A DNA stretch of 40,783 nt, from contig JAJPKD010000257.1 of the NCBI GenBank assembly GCA_021323895.1, positions 1 through 40,783 of the forward strand, written 5' to 3'. A program made the position numbers and the translations under genes. Below, piece after piece: positions 12,651-22,700 of this stretch. The notes below the pieces were generated by a model that did no database searches, was not told the DNA's origin, and saw nothing but the letters and a program-made list of their open reading frames with translations. The stretch comes from Acidobacteriota bacterium. Lineage in GTDB: Bacteria; Acidobacteriota; Blastocatellia; Pyrinomonadales; Pyrinomonadaceae. Numbering within the stretch: the stretch's first letter is position 1; each line of letters starts with the position of its first letter.

Positions 12651-15600
12651 GTGGTAAAGCCTGCCAGAGAATTCGTCGGTACTGAACGATTCACGTTATT
12701 GCGCCGCCTGGGCACCGGTGGCATGGGCGTCGTGTACGAAGCGCACGATCGAAAAATGGACAAAGTCGTTGCGCTGAAAACGCTGACCCTTTCCGAAGCC
12801 GCGCACATTTATAGATTCAAACGAGAGTTCCGCACGCTGGCTGATGTATCGCATCCGAATCTGGTCACATTGTACGAGTTGATGTCCGAAGGCCAGAGCT
12901 GGTTCTTCACGATGGAACTCGTGAAGGGCGTGACCTTTATCCAATATGTCCGGCCCGGCTCAGTCGAAGCGCTCGACACTGATCACACCCTGCCGCGCGC
13001 AGCCCGCTCGTCGAAGGCCACCGACTCAGAAGCTGAAACTGAGATTTTCGATAGTTCAGTTTTCTCGTTCGAATCCCAACCTCGCGTGGCTTCGGATGAA
13101 GAAGCTTCGCTGGCCGCTTACCAATTGGACGAAAAGCGTTTGCGGCCGGCGCTGCGGCAACTGGCTGAAGGCGTAAATCGCCTGCATGAGTTGGGCAAAC
13201 TGCATCGTGACATCAAACCTTCGAACGTGCTCGTGACGGATGAAGGTCGCGTGGTGTTGCTCGACTTTGGGTTGGTTGAAGATATCAATCCTGAGATGCA
13301 TGAGACGCTGCTGGCCGGCACGCCGGATTACATGTCGCCGGAACAAGGCGCGCAGTCTCCGATTTCCAAAGCGAGCGACTGGTACAGCGTCGGGGTAATT
13401 CTTTATCAGGCGTTGACCGGACGACTGCCGTTTCGCGGTCGATTTTTTGAAGTGATGCTGCGCAAGCAAACGCGCGATCCAATCCAGCCGCGCGAGATCA
13501 ATCCGCACGTCCCGCGCGATCTAAACGAGCTTTGCCTGCGCCTCCTGCGTCGCGATCCGGAAGCACGACCAACCGGTCGCGAAGTGTTGCGGAGTCTCGG
13601 CGCGCATCGATCTGAAGTTCCAAGGTTGCAGCTTGCGCCGGCGCAAGTGTCCTTCATCGGGCGCGAGCGGCAGATGGCGGAACTCCATGATGCGTTTCGG
13701 GCGACGCGCGAAAATCAGTGCGTCACGGTCTTCATGCACGGTGTTTCCGGCATGGGCAAAACGACTTTGGCTCGCATCTTTCTCGATCAACTGAAAAAGA
13801 ACACGCGCAATGCTGTCGTTCTGCAAGGGCGCTGCTACGAACGCGAGTCAGTGCTTTACAAAGCGCTGGATGGCGTCGTCGATAGCCTGAGCAAACACCT
13901 CGCAACTCTGCGCCGCGCCAAGGCCGAAGCTTTCATGCCGCGCGATCGCGCCGCTCTCGCCCGGGTATTTCCGGTCATGCTTCAGGTGGATGCGATCTTC
14001 GAAGCCCGCAGCCGCCATCCGGAATCGATCGATTTGTTTACGTTGCGGCGTAAAGCTTTCGGCGCGCTGCGTGAGTTACTGACGCGCGTCGCGCTGCGCC
14101 AGCCGCTGGTGATTTGCATCGACGATTTGCAGTGGGCCGACGCGGACAGCATTTTTCTGCTCGAAGACTTGCTGCGCCCGCCCGATGCTCCGCCGCTTTT
14201 GCTCATCGCCGGTTTTCGATCCGAAGACACTGAAGAGAAGCCTTTTCTAAAACAGCTTCTCATGCAGACCGGCACTGATACCTGCCGCGAAGTTTTCATT
14301 GGTCCATTGCCCGGAGGCGAAGCGCGCGAGTTAACCCGATCGCTGCTGGCGGCGGCAAAGCTTGACGCCGAACCGCTGATCGAATCGATCGTCAATGAGG
14401 CCGGCGGCAGTCCGTTTCTGCTGGAACAACTCACGCATTACGGCATGATGAACGAGCGGGCGGCAACGACCGGCGTGTCTTTGGCCACGATGCTCGAAGA
14501 ACGCATTAAGCAGTTGCCGGCGGGCGCGCGCGAATTTCTCAACGTACTTGCCGTCGCGCGCCGTCCGGTTAATGAAGCCATCGCGCTGAGTGCGGCTGGC
14601 GTCGCCGGCGATGGGCCGTCGCTGCTGACGACTCTGCGCGGGGCGCAATTCGTACGGAGCAGCGGCACAGAATATGGCGTCGAGGTCTATCACGATCGAA
14701 TCGGCGAGACGCTGGCGTCGTTGCTTGATGAAGGCGAGCGCAAACAGATTCATCGCCGCCTGGCCCAAGCGATCGAAGCGCGCGGGCTCGACGATCCGGG
14801 AAGCTTGTATCAGGACTATCTCGGCGCGGGCGAAACCGATCGCGCGGCGTTGCATGCCGAAGCTGCCGCGAAAAAAGCCGCGACGGCGCTGGCGTTCGAT
14901 CGCGCGGCGCTCTACTTCCGGCGCGCCATTGAATTGAAACCCGAGGCGCCAAGCCTGGTCGAATTGAAGATTGGCTTGGGCGATGCACTCGCGAATGCGG
15001 GGCGTCCGGCTGAAGCCGCCGATGAATTTCTCGATGCGGCGAAATTGACTTCGTCGCGTCGCGCTCTCGAGTTGCGGCAACGCGCCGGCGCGCAACTCCT
15101 GATGGGTGGCCACATCGATGAAGGACTCGAAGTCTTTCGGATCGTCCTAGAGAGTGTGGGGTTGAAACTGGCGCGTGGCCCGAAGCGCGCGCTGCTGTCT
15201 CTCGTTTTGCGTCGATTGTGGATTCGACTGCGGGGCTTCGGATTCACCGAACGTGATGCCGCTTCGATTCCTGAAACCGATTTGCTGCGCATCGATACGT
15301 GCTGGGCTGTGGCCGCGGGCTTAGGCGTGGTTGATCTAATTCGCGGCGCGGATTTTCAGAGTTTACATCTGCTGTTGGCGCTGCCCGCGGGCGAGATTTC
15401 GCGGGTCGCGCGCGCAATGGCGTTTGAAGTAAGTCAGGCGGCGGCGCGGGGCGGTCCTGAGCGTGAGCATGTCGCCCGGCTTATGGAAAAAACCGAGGAG
15501 TTGGCCCAGCGCGCCGGCAATCCACAGGCGCGAGGCTTGGCAATCTGGGCGCGCGGCTTGAGCGCTTACCTGCTCGGGAATTGGAAGCAGGCTGCCGAAC

Positions 15601-16418
15601 TTTGCGAACGCGCCGCGGAGATCCTACGTGATGAATGCACAGGGGTGACCTGGGAGTTAGCGATCGCGAATCGTTTTATGCTGGCGGCGTTGTTGTACCT
15701 CGGTGACATGGTGGAAGTGTCGCGGCGTGTGCCACAGCTTCTGTCTGCGGCGTTAGATCAGGGAAACTTGTTTGCCGCAACCGATCTGCGCACGCGCTTG
15801 AATATGATCTGGCTGGCCGCGGACGATCCGACGCGCGCGCGCGACGAAGTGATCGCGGCGATGACCACCTGGCCGCGCCGCGGTTTTCATTTGCAGCACT
15901 ACACGTCGCTGGTAGCGCTGGCGCAAATTGAATTGTACACAGGCGATTACGAAGTCGCGTGGAAGCACGTCGAAGGCCAGCTTAAGCCGATCGAAAAATC
16001 TCTGCTCCTGCGCATCCAGGGTTTGCGGATCGACGCGACTCAGGTGCGCGCCCGTTTGGCCTTGGCGAGTGCCGTCGGGGATCAAAAGCAACGTCGTCTG
16101 CAACTCGCGGAAAAGCTGGCGACGAAAATCGAGCGCGAGAACATGGCTTACGCGACGCCGATGGCGACGCTCATTCGCGCCGGGGTCGCGAAGAAACGCG
16201 GAGACGAAGCCAGGGCAGTTAAGCACTTAGAGGATGCCTTGCAGAATTTCGAAGCTTCAAACATGCAATTGTACGCCGCGGTTACTCGTCGCCGATTGGG
16301 CGAACTAATCGGTGGCGACCAGGGCCGTGAGCTGCTCGCCAAATCGGATCGCTGGATGGCGAGACAAATGATCAAGAACCCGGCGAAGATGACGAATCTA
16401 TTGGCGCCGGGATTCTAA
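12651..16418 (+). CDS. Ser/Thr protein kinase fused to AAA/NACHT-like ATPase and TPR region
   Basis: The 1255-residue cytosolic protein has a Hanks-type kinase domain: Gly-loop GTGGMGVVYE (21-30), Lys43, HRDIKPSN (185-192), DFG (205-207) and SPEQ (229-232). All catalytic residues are present. An insertion of about 55 residues (103-158), rich in Ser, Asp and Glu, splits the kinase lobes. A predicted-ATPase domain follows, with Walker A GVSGMGKT (364-371) and Walker B LVICIDDLQWAD (486-497). The C-terminal half is helical and TPR-like. The order matches large kinase-ATPase regulators of Acidobacteria, Myxobacteria and Cyanobacteria. The target is unknown. Translation probably starts at a GTG. 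It is followed 36 bases later by xseA. Confidence 0.93.
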   Translation: MVKPAREFVGTERFTLLRRLGTGGMGVVYEAHDRKMDKVVALKTLTLSEAAHIYRFKREFRTLADVSHPNLVTLYELMSEGQSWFFTMELVKGVTFIQYVRPGSVEALDTDHTLPRAARSSKATDSEAETEIFDSSVFSFESQPRVASDEEASLAAYQLDEKRLRPALRQLAEGVNRLHELGKLHRDIKPSNVLVTDEGRVVLLDFGLVEDINPEMHETLLAGTPDYMSPEQGAQSPISKASDWYSVGVILYQALTGRLPFRGRFFEVMLRKQTRDPIQPREINPHVPRDLNELCLRLLRRDPEARPTGREVLRSLGAHRSEVPRLQLAPAQVSFIGRERQMAELHDAFRATRENQCVTVFMHGVSGMGKTTLARIFLDQLKKNTRNAVVLQGRCYERESVLYKALDGVVDSLSKHLATLRRAKAEAFMPRDRAALARVFPVMLQVDAIFEARSRHPESIDLFTLRRKAFGALRELLTRVALRQPLVICIDDLQWADADSIFLLEDLLRPPDAPPLLLIAGFRSEDTEEKPFLKQLLMQTGTDTCREVFIGPLPGGEARELTRSLLAAAKLDAEPLIESIVNEAGGSPFLLEQLTHYGMMNERAATTGVSLATMLEERIKQLPAGAREFLNVLAVARRPVNEAIALSAAGVAGDGPSLLTTLRGAQFVRSSGTEYGVEVYHDRIGETLASLLDEGERKQIHRRLAQAIEARGLDDPGSLYQDYLGAGETDRAALHAEAAAKKAATALAFDRAALYFRRAIELKPEAPSLVELKIGLGDALANAGRPAEAADEFLDAAKLTSSRRALELRQRAGAQLLMGGHIDEGLEVFRIVLESVGLKLARGPKRALLSLVLRRLWIRLRGFGFTERDAASIPETDLLRIDTCWAVAAGLGVVDLIRGADFQSLHLLLALPAGEISRVARAMAFEVSQAAARGGPEREHVARLMEKTEELAQRAGNPQARGLAIWARGLSAYLLGNWKQAAELCERAAEILRDECTGVTWELAIANRFMLAALLYLGDMVEVSRRVPQLLSAALDQGNLFAATDLRTRLNMIWLAADDPTRARDEVIAAMTTWPRRGFHLQHYTSLVALAQIELYTGDYEVAWKHVEGQLKPIEKSLLLRIQGLRIDATQVRARLALASAVGDQKQRRLQLAEKLATKIERENMAYATPMATLIRAGVAKKRGDEARAVKHLEDALQNFEASNMQLYAAVTRRRLGELIGGDQGRELLAKSDRWMARQMIKNPAKMTNLLAPGF

Positions 16419-16454: not shown

Positions 16455-17861
16455 GTGTCGCAACCACTTCTCGCATCACTTTTCGATCAAACGGAACGCA
16501 CGCCGCTCAGCGTGTCTGAGCTGACGGCGCAAATTCGCGGGGAACTGGAAAAGCGTTTCTTCACTGTTTGGGTCGAAGGCGAAATTTCAAATTATCGCGC
16601 GCAGAGTTCCGGTCATTGGTACTTCACGCTCAAAGACGAGTTTGCGCAGTTGAAGTGCGCGTGTTATCGCAGCAGCAACCAGCGAATTCGGTTTCGGCTC
16701 GAAGATGGCATGCAGGTGCGCGCCCGGGGGCGTCTGAGCGTTTACGAGCAGAAGGGCGAGTACCAACTGGTTGTTGAGTACGTCGAGCCGGTCGGCGCAG
16801 GCGCCCTGCAGCTCGCTTTTGAGCAAACAAAGCAGCGATTGCAAGCTGAAGGATTGTTTGCGCCGGAATTGAAACGCGCCATCCCGATCTTTCCGCGGCG
16901 GGTTGGCGTAGTTACCTCAGCCACGGGCGCGGCGATTCGCGATATCGTTAATGTCATTTCGCGCCGCACGCGCACGGTTCACGTTCTGCTCGCGTCTGCA
17001 CGTGTGCAAGGCGAAGGCGCATCCCACGAAATTGTTCGCGCGATCCGCTTTCTCAACGAACATCATCAGCGCGCGCTGCGCGAAGGAAATCGTGAGGCAG
17101 CAATTGACGTCATGATCGTGGGGCGCGGTGGCGGATCGATTGAAGACTTCTGGGCTTTTAATGAAGAAGCAGTGGCCCGCGCGATTCGCAATTCGGCGAT
17201 TCCGGTTATTTCCGCGGTTGGCCACGAGACTGATTTCACGATTGCTGACTTTGTCGCCGATCTGCGCGCGCCCACACCCTCGGCGGCGGCGGAAATTGTC
17301 GCCGCGCATGAAGCAGAATTGTGCGCCCGTCTCGCTGCGTTGAAGGCCACGTTCGCGCGATCGATTCAATATCGGATTGCCGGCGCGCGCAATCAGATTC
17401 ACGAGTTGGCGCAATCGACTGCCTTTGACGCAGTGGCGGCGCAACTGCACGAGGCAATCGTTCGCGTTGACTCAGCCGATCATCGACTGCAAACTTCGAT
17501 CAAATCCTCATTCGTCGAGATTCAACGCCGCATGAATGCTGCGGTCCACAGCCTTTCACCATTGCAACTTCGCGCAGTCGCCGCCGCTGGTCAGACACGG
17601 TTCGGTTCGTTGAGCCGATTGCGCGACAATGCGATCATGGCTCGTCTCGAAAACGCGAAACAATATTTTGCGAAAGCTGTCGCCGCGCTCGACGCCATGT
17701 CGCCTTTGAGAGTCCTGGAACGCGGATATGCGATCGCGCAGGACCAGCGCGGGCAAATCATCCGCGAAGCGAAAGCAGTTAACGCTGGGGATGAACTGCG
17801 GCTGAGGCTTTGGAAAGGTGTGCTCGACTGTCGAGTCGAAAGAATTGAGACCGAAAATTAG
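16455..17861 (+). CDS. xseA: Exodeoxyribonuclease VII large subunit
   Basis: XseA pairs with several copies of XseB to degrade single-stranded DNA. The 468-residue protein has an N-terminal OB-fold (VEGEISNYRAQSSGHWYFTLKD, about 39-60), the catalytic domain with RRVGVVTSATGAAIRDI and DVMIVGRGGGSIEDFWAFNEE, then a coiled-coil region and the C-terminal LERGYAIAQD segment. All conserved parts are present. The start is a GTG. Its partner xseB is about 1.5 kb downstream, with three other genes in between, which is unusual because the two are often adjacent. Confidence 0.97.
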   Translation: MSQPLLASLFDQTERTPLSVSELTAQIRGELEKRFFTVWVEGEISNYRAQSSGHWYFTLKDEFAQLKCACYRSSNQRIRFRLEDGMQVRARGRLSVYEQKGEYQLVVEYVEPVGAGALQLAFEQTKQRLQAEGLFAPELKRAIPIFPRRVGVVTSATGAAIRDIVNVISRRTRTVHVLLASARVQGEGASHEIVRAIRFLNEHHQRALREGNREAAIDVMIVGRGGGSIEDFWAFNEEAVARAIRNSAIPVISAVGHETDFTIADFVADLRAPTPSAAAEIVAAHEAELCARLAALKATFARSIQYRIAGARNQIHELAQSTAFDAVAAQLHEAIVRVDSADHRLQTSIKSSFVEIQRRMNAAVHSLSPLQLRAVAAAGQTRFGSLSRLRDNAIMARLENAKQYFAKAVAALDAMSPLRVLERGYAIAQDQRGQIIREAKAVNAGDELRLRLWKGVLDCRVERIETEN

Positions 17862-17895
17862 CTGCCGCCCCTCGCGTTGAGTCGGAGCAAACCCG

Positions 17896-17944
17896 TTGAC
17901 ACCCGGTAATCAACAAACGCATACTTCTTGTGTCTTAGAGACAC
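17896..17944 (+). promoter_or_regulatory. Promoter and palindrome ahead of the DUF5678-like/retropepsin pair
   Basis: A perfect -35 box TTGACA (17896-17901) is followed after 18 bases by CATACT (17920-17925, four of six to the -10 consensus). A perfect palindrome GTGTCT-tag-AGACAC (17930-17944) overlaps the expected transcription start. It could be an operator or a hairpin in the leader. It suggests the small pair is transcribed apart from xseA. Confidence 0.5.
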
Positions 17945-17956
17945 TTCGTTTGACCA

Positions 17957-18217
17957 ATGCTAGATACGGAACGTCAATACTTCGCTGAGCATCGCGCCGA
18001 GTTAGTTTCTCGGCACATGGGTCAATTTGTTGTCATCAGGGACGACGAACTTATCGGAGCATTTAATACCATCGAAGAGGCACTTGCAGAGGGAGCGCGG
18101 CGTTTTGGCTTAACACCCTTTCTTGTGCGTCAGGTGACCGTTACGGAAGAAGAAGAAGTAAACATTCCAGCTCTCACATTGGGGATACTCCGTGCCGATT
18201 CTTCACGTCCAGTATGA
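17957..18217 (+). CDS. Small DUF5678-like protein
   Basis: The 86-residue protein begins with a helix (DTERQYFAEHRAELVSRHMG), then QFVVIRDDELIGAFNTIEEALAEGARRFG and TPFLVRQVTV. This layout (YF...HR..L....G.FV.I.....IG.F.T..EA...G...FG..PFLVR) is that of DUF5678-like proteins found beside retropepsin-like genes. It has no signal peptide or membrane segment. Its 3' end overlaps the protease gene by 26 bases, implying translational coupling and a joint role, perhaps as a partner or substrate adaptor. The role is inference. Confidence 0.72.
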   Translation: MLDTERQYFAEHRAELVSRHMGQFVVIRDDELIGAFNTIEEALAEGARRFGLTPFLVRQVTVTEEEEVNIPALTLGILRADSSRPV

Positions 18218-18677
18218 TGCCAAGGGTCAAACACCCGATGGCAAAACAGTTCAAGTCCCGCCCAGTATAGCGCTTCTGCAGAACGGTCCTCGGGTTCAAG
18301 TAATAATTGGCGTGGCGCAAAGCTTTGCGGAGCAAGTTGTTCAGCAGGGGCAATCCGTTCCGAAGCCAGTGTCCGGTTTGGCTTTAGTTGACACTGGTGC
18401 ATCCACTACTTGTATAGATGACTCTCTGGCGCGCGGCTTGGGGTTACCTGTGATTGATGTCGTCCAAATGACATCTGCCTCGCATGCTGACACGCAAGCG
18501 AACGTTTATCCAATCGAGATGGAGATTGTCGGCTCGCCAATCAAAGTTAACGTACCTCGTGCCCTTGGAGCTAATCTCACTCCCCAAGGAATCGTCGCTC
18601 TTATTGGTCGTGACTACCTGCAGCACTGCACGCTCTTCTACAACGGAGTAACAGGCCAGATCACCTTGTCGATCTAG
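18192..18677 (+). CDS. Retropepsin-like aspartic protease
   Basis: The 161-residue protein carries the retropepsin active-site motif LVDTGAS (Asp67-Ser71) followed by TCIDDSLARGLGLP, and a later ALIGRDYLQHC (136-146), which matches the second hydrophobic-Ile/Leu-Gly-Arg-Asp flap-side motif of the family. A single catalytic Asp means it must work as a homodimer, as in retroviral proteases. There is no signal peptide. The GTG start lies within the preceding small gene. It is coupled to that gene and flanked by genes for exonuclease VII. The natural substrate is unknown. Confidence 0.82.
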   Translation: MPILHVQYDAKGQTPDGKTVQVPPSIALLQNGPRVQVIIGVAQSFAEQVVQQGQSVPKPVSGLALVDTGASTTCIDDSLARGLGLPVIDVVQMTSASHADTQANVYPIEMEIVGSPIKVNVPRALGANLTPQGIVALIGRDYLQHCTLFYNGVTGQITLSI

Positions 18678-18703
18678 CGTGGTTTTGACGATAGCTTGGT
18701 AGC

Positions 18704-19354
18704 ATGAAAACGCAAAGAAATCGCATCGTCATCAATCTTGATCAGAACAAGCCGCGCGCGGCGCGTCAGAATGGATCCCGCGGCGGCTTTGGGCGCGTCC
18801 TTCTTTTGATCGGAATCATCCTGGTAGTCGTCGTTGGCGGGCTGGCGGCGGGCGGATATTTTTGGTGGCGAAATTATCAGAGCGGGCCCGCTTACGCGCT
18901 GGCTGTTTTTGCGGACGCGGCTCAACGAAATGATGTCGAGACCGTGGACAGCATGTTGGATTACGACGCCATTCTGAAAACATTTGTCGCCCAGACGCGT
19001 CCCGGACCAGCGTTAGGTGATTTGCCTTTGCCTAACTTGGGGCAGATTGAGGCGCTGAGCCCGTCTGTTTCGGCGAAGGTGAAACAGACGTTGCAGAATG
19101 AAGTCCACGCGGAAGCAAAACGCATTAGCGAGCGCGCCGCCGGTAAACCCTTCCTGGTGATCGCGTTGGCGATCGGCTGGGTCGTTGATATCAAGCAACA
19201 GGAGAACGTCGCCCAAGCCAACCTTAATATTCAAAACGAGAAGATTCAGCTTACAATGCAGCGCGACGGCGAACGTTGGCGAATCGTTGGCGTGCAGGAT
19301 GATAACCTGACGAAGGTCTTAACGAATGCAGCCGTCCGAAATTTGCCGAGATGA
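18704..19354 (+). CDS. Single-pass membrane protein of unknown function
   Basis: The 216-residue protein has a basic, Arg/Gly-rich N-terminus, one membrane helix (about residues 29-50, [23 protein letters not shown]), and a periplasmic domain beginning [30 protein letters not shown]. That pattern recalls the DUF2939 type, in which a conserved D at the end of the first helix pair is followed by alpha/beta repeats; the resemblance is weak. It ends in ATGA overlap with xseB, so the two are translationally coupled. No function can be assigned. Confidence 0.72.
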
Positions 19355-19602
19355 GCACACCCAAAACGAAATCTTTTGAATCGTCTCTGGAAGAACTCGA
19401 ACGCATCGTTCGTGAACTCGAGCAAGGCGAGTTGCCGTTGGAGAAGAGTCTCGAGTTGTTTGAGCAGGGCGTGAAGCTTTCGCGTGAATGCCAGGAGCGC
19501 CTTAATCAAGCCGAGCGTCGCATCGAAATTTTGATCCGCGACAACCAGGGACGGCCAACCATGAAACCGCTCGAAGCCGGCGAAGTTGCTGATAACGAAT
19601 AG
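19351..19602 (+). CDS. xseB: Exodeoxyribonuclease VII small subunit
   Basis: The 83-residue protein has the full XseB core: [54 protein letters not shown] (about residues 8-60), a two-helix coiled coil that binds XseA. Its ATG overlaps the stop of the preceding membrane-protein gene (ATGA). The ispA-like gene starts near or inside its 3' end. Having xseB and ispA together is a widespread bacterial arrangement. Confidence 0.96.
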
Positions 19603-20550: not shown

Positions 20551-21069
20551 TCACGGCTGCTTGGGCTCAGTTTTGACCGGGGCTGGCGGCATCTTTGTTG
20601 TGTCTTGCATCTGCGCCCATTTCGAGTGCTCCTGCGAAACCAAAGACTCGACCCGTTCAGCCAACTGCACCGTCGCGGTCTTCTGCGGCTCGGCCGGATT
20701 CGCATAAGGACCGGCGCTGCTTAAGAAAAGAAACTTCTCGTGCTTCAAGGCTTCGGCCGTCGATCGGTAACTGATCCAGTTTTGCTGGTACTGGTTGAGC
20801 TGCTGTAATCCTTCCAACAATGCGATCATCGCGCCGAGTGTGCCCGCAATTATTCCCGTAATAGCTCCGTATTTGGCCGAGAAGACTGCGCTCAAAGGTA
20901 TCATTACGGAAATTGTTAGAGTGGCTTTCTTGAGTCGCTTGAACATGCGTTCGTTACGGCTGGCCTTCTTGTCGTAATACTGCAATTGATCTTCGAGCCG
21001 CTCCATCGAAACGGCAGTTTGGGCCATCGTGCGGGCACCCGTTGCGGTTGGTGTTGATGAGCCTTCCAT
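20551..21069 (-). CDS. SLATT-family (DUF4231) two-helix membrane protein
   Basis: The 172-residue protein has an N-terminal helix (MERLEDQLQYYDKKASRNERMFKRLKK), two close membrane helices (about 49-66 and 68-86), and the DUF4231 signature QYQQNWISYRSTAEALKHEKFLFLSSAGPYA (about 93-123). SLATT proteins are proposed pore-forming effectors in nucleotide-signalled conflict systems. It is the last gene of a three-gene operon with a SLOG protein and a pentapeptide-repeat membrane protein; 12 bases separate it from the latter. A GAGGA ribosome site precedes the ATG. That it kills or arrests the cell is inference from the family. Confidence 0.85.
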   Translation of the reverse strand: MEGSSTPTATGARTMAQTAVSMERLEDQLQYYDKKASRNERMFKRLKKATLTISVMIPLSAVFSAKYGAITGIIAGTLGAMIALLEGLQQLNQYQQNWISYRSTAEALKHEKFLFLSSAGPYANPAEPQKTATVQLAERVESLVSQEHSKWAQMQDTTKMPPAPVKTEPKQP

Positions 21070-21081
21070 CGTTTGATCCTC

Positions 21082-22176
21082 TTAGGTCTTTCTTGATTGA
21101 TTCAGCCACTCTGAAACTTTCATTGTCTTCGATCCATCGCCAGCCTCGGAGATATGTACGTTCGCTCCCGGGTTATCGGCAGCATCGATGCCCGTCAAAA
21201 TCGTGCCGCGGATCTTTGCGCCTGCGAAGTTGGTTCCGTGAATCGTCGCCACCTCGAAATTAGCCTTGCGAAGATCCGCATCACTAAAATCGACGCCACT
21301 CAAATCCGCGAGTTTGAAATTAGCATCTTTGCAATCAGCGCCCGCCAGCACCGCGCCGCTCAAGTTAGCCTGCCGGAATTGCGCGCCTTGCAAGACTGAA
21401 TTTCTAAACGAAGCCGCAGATAGATCCGCATGATAGAAGTCTGCGTAAGTGAAGTCCGTCTTGGCCCAATACGCATCGGCGGCTTTTGCTCTCGACAAAT
21501 CCAAGCCCCGCGCATTGGCCAGGACCTTTTCGCCGGCTTTTTTCGCGGTCGCGGGGATGTCCATCACCAACGCAATGGTGAGCGTCTTCAGGACCTTTTC
21601 ATTTTCTTCAATCGATAGCGAGGCGCTCAGGACCTGGTTTGTAAGCTCAACTAATTCTTCGCGTCTGGCATCGCTTACGGTCCACTCGGAGGGAAATGAC
21701 TTGAGAATCGCGCCCAGCTTTACGGCCGCTGCAGCGCGCAGCAAAGGAGACTTGTCGGACAGCTCTTTCACAATCCGTTGATAAGCCGCGTCAATATTCT
21801 TGCGCTTGTCGAAACCGAATTGCTCCTCATTCTTCTTCTCTTCAAAGGCCAACCGCTTCCGCGTGTTTTCACTCTGCCCGAGCAAGTAGCCACCCACGGC
21901 GCCGCCGACCGTCACAAAGAGGGCAATCATCTTGAGCCAGAACAAACTTCCACTGGTGTCGCTGCGAATCTGTTGAATTTCAGCCGCGAATTTTGCGATC
22001 TCGTATTGCTCTTTCGAGCTGGCCCCCGTAATCGGCGGCAGCGATCCCTGGATCGTGATCTTTTGTGTCTGGTAAACGAGGACCACGATCGCGATGCAAG
22101 TCAGGAGGACCAGAAAGATGATGATCGGCTGCCTGAGACCACGTCCCTGCTCCGTGCCATGTCGCTTGTTAGTCAT
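21082..22176 (-). CDS. Two-TM pentapeptide-repeat protein of the SLOG-SLATT operon
   Basis: The 364-residue protein has membrane helices at about 18-36 and 79-99, a charged, coiled-coil-like stretch (KRLAFEEKKNEEQFGFDKRK), a helical region (130-220, for example AYQRIVKELSDKSPLLRAAAAVKLGAI) and pentapeptide repeats at about 224-332 of the A(D/N)LxG/A type (ADLSAASFRNS, ANLSGAVLAGA, ADLSGVDFSDA). The repeats form a right-handed beta-helix and usually bind other proteins. The operon starts with SLOG, whose stop lies five bases away. A role as sensor or as scaffold for the membrane effector is inference. Confidence 0.85.
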   Translation of the reverse strand: MTNKRHGTEQGRGLRQPIIIFLVLLTCIAIVVLVYQTQKITIQGSLPPITGASSKEQYEIAKFAAEIQQIRSDTSGSLFWLKMIALFVTVGGAVGGYLLGQSENTRKRLAFEEKKNEEQFGFDKRKNIDAAYQRIVKELSDKSPLLRAAAAVKLGAILKSFPSEWTVSDARREELVELTNQVLSASLSIEENEKVLKTLTIALVMDIPATAKKAGEKVLANARGLDLSRAKAADAYWAKTDFTYADFYHADLSAASFRNSVLQGAQFRQANLSGAVLAGADCKDANFKLADLSGVDFSDADLRKANFEVATIHGTNFAGAKIRGTILTGIDAADNPGANVHISEAGDGSKTMKVSEWLNQSRKT

Positions 22177-22181
22177 GAAAC

Positions 22182-22700
22182 TTATTCTAGTATCCGCGCT
22201 GATCGATGAAAGCTTACTTTGAGTTGCTCGACGTCAACGTGTACCCAAGGTCGATTCTCAGACGTAATCCTTTTTACCGCATCACCCGTTCCGCCGGAGC
22301 CCTGCGCGGGTTTGCCGTCCCAAACGATAATCACGAGATCAGATTGCTGAATCACCCAATCCATCGCTGCTTTATAAGCAAGATCCGAGCGAGCTTCATA
22401 ATTCAGCCGAACCTCTTTGCGCGCCGACTCTTGTAGGCTGAGATATCGTCCCTTTGCCGGCCCGGAAACAAAGTCGTCGGCATAGGTTTCAAATGGCCGG
22501 ACAATTTCCAGAGGCAGCTTCAATTTCACAGCGGCTTCGGCAAACAACGTGTCCGCTCCTTCGGCGATCGCTGAAACGGCCACCACGTCCCGGTGCTGTT
22601 GTCGCGCTCGCTCAAGAATCGCGGCGCACTGTTCAGCCACGAACAGCGTTGTTTCTGGGTTTGAAAAATAGCGATGACCGACTATGCCTACGCGAAACAT
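22182..22700 (-). CDS. SLOG-domain nucleotide-binding protein
   Basis: The 172-residue protein is a single Rossmann-like domain. VGIVGHRYF (4-12) is the first nucleotide-binding loop. AVSAIAEGADTLFAEAA (41-57) is the conserved GAD segment, LPLEIVRPFETYADDF follows, and DWVIQQSDLVIIVWDGKPAQGSGGTGD (114-140) carries the second binding loop. These are the marks of the SLOG (TRPM/LOG-related) superfamily, proposed to sense or process nucleotides in conflict systems. It is the first gene of the operon with a pentapeptide-repeat protein and a SLATT protein. A ligand or enzyme activity cannot be named. Confidence 0.82.
   Translation of the reverse strand: MFRVGIVGHRYFSNPETTLFVAEQCAAILERARQQHRDVVAVSAIAEGADTLFAEAAVKLKLPLEIVRPFETYADDFVSGPAKGRYLSLQESARKEVRLNYEARSDLAYKAAMDWVIQQSDLVIIVWDGKPAQGSGGTGDAVKRITSENRPWVHVDVEQLKVSFHRSARILE

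Follow-up and report, generated by a model that had tools for sequence, protein, structure and literature searches.

To our knowledge, cytosolic bacterial retropepsins are almost unstudied, and DUF5678 is a Pfam family of unknown function. In the open-access literature, which leaves most subscription journals outside, no paper was found on DUF5678 function or on a DUF5678/retropepsin pair. The nearest characterised or classified relatives of the protease examined here are RimB, RloA, Rickettsia APRc and the COG3577/COG5550 peptidases, none of which is described with DUF5678 in those parts of the sources that were available. APRc, for which we know of no DUF5678 partner, is likewise a bacterial retropepsin and its structure is matched by the protease profile; the protease examined here differs from it in having no apparent membrane segment.

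RimB (of the RimABK system of Pseudomonas) and RloA are bacterial retropepsin-like proteases; RimB is cytosolic and operon-encoded with two regulatory partners, a c-di-GMP phosphodiesterase and an ATP-grasp ligase, and RloA is secreted (PMC11957791, PMC12239564). Both are of the single-domain retropepsin type with a DTG-A active site, like the window protease, but the secretion of RloA and the absence of DUF5678 from the RimB partners set them apart. No Pfam match links the window protein to the RimB or RloA families, no ATP-grasp (RimK-like) gene occurs among the scanned neighbours (xseA, orf216 and xseB), and the RloA-like structure 2pma is absent from the best 60 of 196 PDB matches to the protease profile. 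The prokaryotic single-domain clan AA peptidases of COG3577/COG5550 and TIGR03698/TIGR02281 are comparable in size (about 120-160 aa) and probably dimeric, and the available part of the source describes no partner gene for them, unlike the DUF5678 pair (PMC2642776). Against the TIGR03698 and TIGR02281 models the window protease scores 24.1 and 19.6 bits, far below the cut-offs of ~57 bits.

Two kinds of mobile unit are also similar. Type II toxin-antitoxin (TA) modules of the RelB/Phd type resemble the pair in consisting of two short genes that overlap, the small one leading, in being patchy and mobile, in the RelB-like domain present on some DUF5678 partners, and in a decay that leaves the small gene. 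The pair departs from them in placing a retropepsin in the effector position, and the window small protein has no RelB-like N-terminus; no retropepsin is known to us among type II toxins, and the present searches turned up none. Phage morons are likewise autonomous small units inserted cleanly between co-oriented genes, and the pair occupies such sites in phage structural operons and, in the window, in a bacterial operon. Unlike morons, the cassette has no recognised transposase or terminator of its own.

The cassette in the xse operon

The window is the whole stretch of Acidobacteriota DNA that was analysed, 40,783 nt in length, and its features are listed in Table 1. A re-check of the sequence placed all elements named in an earlier note at, or at most 2 nt from, the positions given there, and the ORF coordinates confirmed the 26-nt overlap of the 86-residue protein with the DTGA protease. 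In two genomes of the same genus, G004 (xseA 84% identical) and G002, a single nucleotide separates the xseA stop codon from the ATG of the next gene, and because of this empty site the corresponding 842 nt of the window can be taken as a clean insertion. The empty site, together with unrelated neighbours at the other loci, upholds the earlier description of a self-contained unit. The cassette has a GC content of 51.4% (window 55.3%), and the tetranucleotide TAGC occurs at both of its edges (17859-17862 and 18700-18703), possibly by chance.

Table 1. Positions of the cassette, its parts and the surrounding operon genes in the window
Feature	Position	Strand	Basis or remark
Inserted cassette, 842 nt	17862..18703	+	Exactly between xseA stop codon and ATG of next operon gene; empty site in congeners
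Sigma-70-like promoter, TTGACA-18-CATACT, in 95-nt leader (plausible)	17896..17925	+	10/12 consensus matches; TTGACA 17896-17901, 18-nt spacer, CATACT 17920-17925
Inverted repeat GTGTCT-TAG-AGACAC	17930..17944	+	Judged a chance feature
Small partner gene, 86 aa, ATG start, DUF5678 domain and C-terminal tail	17957..18217	+	PF18929 match at residues 15-57; orthologues 5' of every intact window-type protease relative
DUF5678 domain	17999..18127	+	PF18929 match in genome context
Conserved small-protein tail IPALTLGILRAD	18164..18199	+	Alignment; Gly codon GGG 18182-18184 doubles as part of ribosome-binding site, 10 nt before protease start
Predicted cytosolic retropepsin-like aspartic protease, 161 aa, GTG start	18192..18677	+	PF13650, PF13975 and PF00077 (Pfam), all above cut-off; PDB profile matches
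Catalytic DTGA motif, Asp67 invariant	18390..18401	+	Alignments
Second retropepsin signature Leu-Ile-Gly-Arg-Asp (LIGRD, residues 137-141)	18600..18614	+	Alignments
xseA, exonuclease VII large subunit, upstream host-operon gene	16455..17861	+	PF02601
Membrane-anchored ORF (orf216) between xseA and xseB	18704..19354	+	Ancestral operon gene, outside cassette; directly after xseA in same-genus genomes
xseB, exonuclease VII small subunit, host-operon gene	19351..19602	+	PF02609

The leader upstream of the small gene had been credited with a good promoter and with a palindrome acting as the cassette's own switch. The promoter-like site is significant against dinucleotide shuffles of the leader (p = 0.005), and a promoter in the window cassette is plausible; it is not, however, a general cassette feature, as a comparably significant match was found in only 4 of 27 cassettes and the best match across the 27 averages 7.8, versus 7.2 expected. 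The palindrome did not hold up as a switch. An inverted repeat with 6-bp arms arises in 15% of shuffled leaders and is present in 191 of 814 100-nt tiles of the window (23%), and the repeat of the window leader is absent from all other cassettes compared; its chance-level frequency and lack of conservation led to rejection of the operator role. No Rfam match to a leader RNA element was obtained.

Two further loci of the window were noted. Directly 5' of xseA (12651-16418) lies a gene for a 1255-aa Ser/Thr kinase fused to an AAA ATPase and a TPR-like region. On the minus strand at 20551-22700, near the cassette, a SLATT 2TM effector (PF18181/PF14015), a pentapeptide-repeat membrane protein and a weakly SLOG-like protein form a three-gene set that looks like a nucleotide-signal conflict system.

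The protease and its DUF5678 partner

The 161-aa product is, by prediction, a canonical single-domain retropepsin. A profile of the family matches the solved HTLV-1, DDI1, HIV and Rickettsia APRc proteases in a PDB search (APRc structure 5c9d, E 0.008), and Asp67-Thr-Gly is invariant in an alignment of 21 sequences. No signal peptide or membrane segment was apparent on inspection. Since only one catalytic motif is present, the enzyme is predicted to be a homodimer. Some retropepsins paired with DUF5678 (L083, L084, L087 and L092) carry a C-terminal SEC-C-type zinc motif, confirmed as PF02810 in L084 and L092, which suggests docking to a component of translation or secretion. In another paired retropepsin (L133) the DTG reads DTV, and this enzyme is probably catalytically dead.

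The window small protein scores 22.6 bits against PF18929 when taken alone (cut-off 23.2) and 23.4 bits with its frame neighbours in genome context, while sister partners score 26.9 and 35.4 bits. In the window protein a Pfam search identified DUF5678, followed by a tail, and no antitoxin-type or DNA-binding N-terminal domain. An N-terminal RelB-like antitoxin domain (PF18506, E 1e-9 to 3e-11, above cut-off) is present on three DUF5678 partners (L118, L128 and L129), each encoded directly before a retropepsin, and also on an orphan DUF5678 protein (L140). Tandem DUF5678 domains occur within one protein (L113) and as two adjacent ORFs (L116/L137). No credible homologue of DUF5678 was found in the PDB, and there was no match to the family in 150 Pseudomonadota genomes. 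The tail beyond the domain is conserved and hydrophobic (IPALTLGILRA), and in the window it is preceded by an acidic stretch that is not strictly conserved in the alignment. Tails vary by subfamily, and in canonical pairs the tail is a short FGGW that coincides with a ribosome-binding site.

In 15 of 16 relatives the Gly of the tail motif LG(I/L)L is encoded by GGA or GGG, two codons that account for 45% of the Gly codons in the rest of these genes; the distance from this codon to the protease start codon is exactly 10 nt, again in 15 of 16. Canonical pairs often have GGAGG, encoded by the FGGW tail, immediately ahead of the protease start, and ribosome-binding sites are seen inside the small gene in both window-type and canonical pairs. 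As the site is embedded there, conservation of the tail reflects in part a constraint at the DNA level, and no mechanism is built here on the tail by itself. From this arrangement we infer translational coupling of the two genes. The protease is in the +1 frame relative to the small gene, a frame that in L005 opens exactly at the start codon; a retrovirus-like programmed frameshift joining the ORFs is unnecessary, as the embedded ribosome-binding site explains translation.

Pairing and spread across genomes

If the small protein is a dedicated partner, then the two genes would be expected to occur together, and a co-occurrence search was run as a refutation test. A sequence search for protease relatives over 84,980 species genomes led to nine loci being fetched, of which eight hold full-length relatives (54-66% identity) from Pyrinomonadaceae, other Acidobacteria, Ignavibacteria and a gammaproteobacterium. 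The small gene lies 5' of the protease in all eight, always first in order, with an overlap of 26 nt in five and of 14, 32 or 47 nt in the other three. At the ninth locus only a decayed remnant is left and the small gene is missing. With profiles derived from these pairs, 396 Acidobacteriota genomes were searched: the small gene lies immediately 5' of 14 of the 15 strongest protease matches (E up to 1e-10), and at the fifteenth (L045) the ORF upstream matches DUF5678 below threshold. About 100 weaker matches, presumably other clan AA proteases, are without it, except in G101 and G138. The phylum of L003 (148 genomes) gave three small-gene matches, each with a retropepsin after it; the protease of L092 ends in SEC-C. 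Among IMG/VR contigs the pair is present in every full-length window-type relative and at L094-L102 and L105, and it is absent from the distant loci L033, L103 and L104.

The small-gene profile used in these searches (A4) was made from partners lying beside proteases, and only a search with the Pfam DUF5678 model (PF18929) tests the pairing independently. This converse test covered 247 Acidobacteriota genomes and 27 distinct loci. A retropepsin-like ORF is the next same-strand gene at 19 of the 27, usually a few bases from the DUF5678 stop, and none was found elsewhere within these loci. Seven of eight proteases tested from this set reach the PF13650 cut-off, the eighth (L121) falling just below. 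The 19 loci indicate that DUF5678 is a general upstream partner of retropepsins, beyond the subfamily of the window.

Of 29 small genes, 13 have no protease, and most of these 13 belong to a single genus; at the loci surveyed, no intact window-type protease stood alone. The unaccompanied small genes of genus g108 (L071, L075, L076, L078, L080, L081, L085, L086 and L088-L090) occur in several copies per genome, and in L085 the tail of the small gene continues into what is left of a deleted protease, a short C-terminal remnant now fused to it. Trees of partner and protease are congruent, their correlation (r = 0.83) exceeding the highest value among permutations (0.52), which is what co-inheritance would give; purifying selection acts on both genes, dN being far below dS. 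This selection and the conservation across phyla place both genes beyond chance. The pairing of DUF5678 with a retropepsin thus withstood the test, and co-occurrence in every intact relative, coupled overlap and congruent trees bear out the proposal that the small protein is a dedicated partner of the protease. No recurrent third gene was seen by inspection of 16 neighbourhoods.

The pair is a small mobile two-gene unit of scattered soil and water bacteria and of some viruses. A protease match occurs in 4 of 97 relatives (one of the four a decayed remnant) and in none of six congeners, and the neighbouring genes differ at every cassette locus inspected. In L026 the pair is flanked by the genes for the S49 head protease and the capsid of a tailed phage that also has a portal; those of L029 and L101 are beside virion genes, that of L094 beside an integrase, and that of L006 beside a phage-type repressor. 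A role as the head-maturation protease was rejected for L026, where the phage has its own S49 protease by the portal and capsid genes. A search for carriage of the pair on plasmids or GenBank phages gave no matches, and neither protein matched the PADLOC anti-phage defence models at E up to 1.

Proposed role of the partner

Strict pairing, constant gene order, an overlap with an embedded ribosome-binding site, mobility and a conserved active site are shown by the sequences, the pairing being almost certain, and are the starting points for a functional reading. The small protein probably forms a physical complex with the protease. That the whole is a mobile DUF5678/retropepsin module with coupled translation, whose partner binds and restrains the protease like an antitoxin, has roughly even chances; for restraint itself, as opposed to activation or delivery, the chances may be slightly lower. 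In such a module the DUF5678 protein would be translated first, and ribosomes finishing its gene would start the protease from the site hidden in the last codons, so that protease would be made only where its partner had just been made. The partner would then bind the dimeric cytosolic enzyme and restrain it in the way that antitoxins or inhibitors do; once stress or phage infection removed or altered the partner, the freed protease would cut cellular or viral proteins. A restraining partner is favoured by the RelB-like domain in sister pairs and by the asymmetric loss of the two genes. The window partner is likened to an antitoxin rather than classed as a type II member, as it has no antitoxin or DNA-binding domain. 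More tentatively, DUF5678 proteins may be the antitoxin-like regulators of a large undescribed class of TA-like or phage-defence modules with a retropepsin effector, spread by phages and horizontal transfer.

The pairing joins DUF5678 and cytosolic retropepsins in one module and says which proteins to test together, and DUF5678, whose role is unknown, gains a first testable function, probably that of controlling a retropepsin. If the antitoxin-like reading is true, then the effectors of bacterial conflict systems would include a new kind, a protease of the retrovirus type, and the pair would illustrate how a single-domain retropepsin can be held in check inside the cell.

The main rival, which is rather unlikely, makes DUF5678 an activator or, as the earlier note suggested, a substrate adaptor that binds the protease dimer and presents targets, or that serves folding. 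Obligate pairing and overlapping genes suit it, recognition could be the task of the tandem DUF5678 domains and of the variable N-terminal regions, and the SEC-C tails of some proteases suggest partner docking; the antitoxin-type domains on several DUF5678 partners speak against it. Orphan small genes are common and orphan window-type proteases are not, which suits an antitoxin-like or obligate-helper role, but a protease that depends on the small protein only for folding or delivery would also lead to this asymmetry. It is improbable that the small protein is instead the substrate, matured or destroyed by the protease, for example through a cut before or within its tail that releases a signal. 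The conserved hydrophobic tail beyond the domain would fit such a cut, RimB and RloA cut glutamate-rich sequences (PMC11957791, PMC12239564), and the window tail is preceded by an acidic stretch. Yet conservation of this stretch is not strict, subfamilies have different tails, and the canonical FGGW coincides with the ribosome-binding site.

An ordinary accessory pair, read from the xse operon and linked by co-transfer alone, would agree with the co-orientation of the genes within that operon and with the modest promoter evidence, but it is very improbable: the two genes stay paired in different phyla, among unrelated neighbours and with distinct protease subfamilies, and both have dN far below dS.
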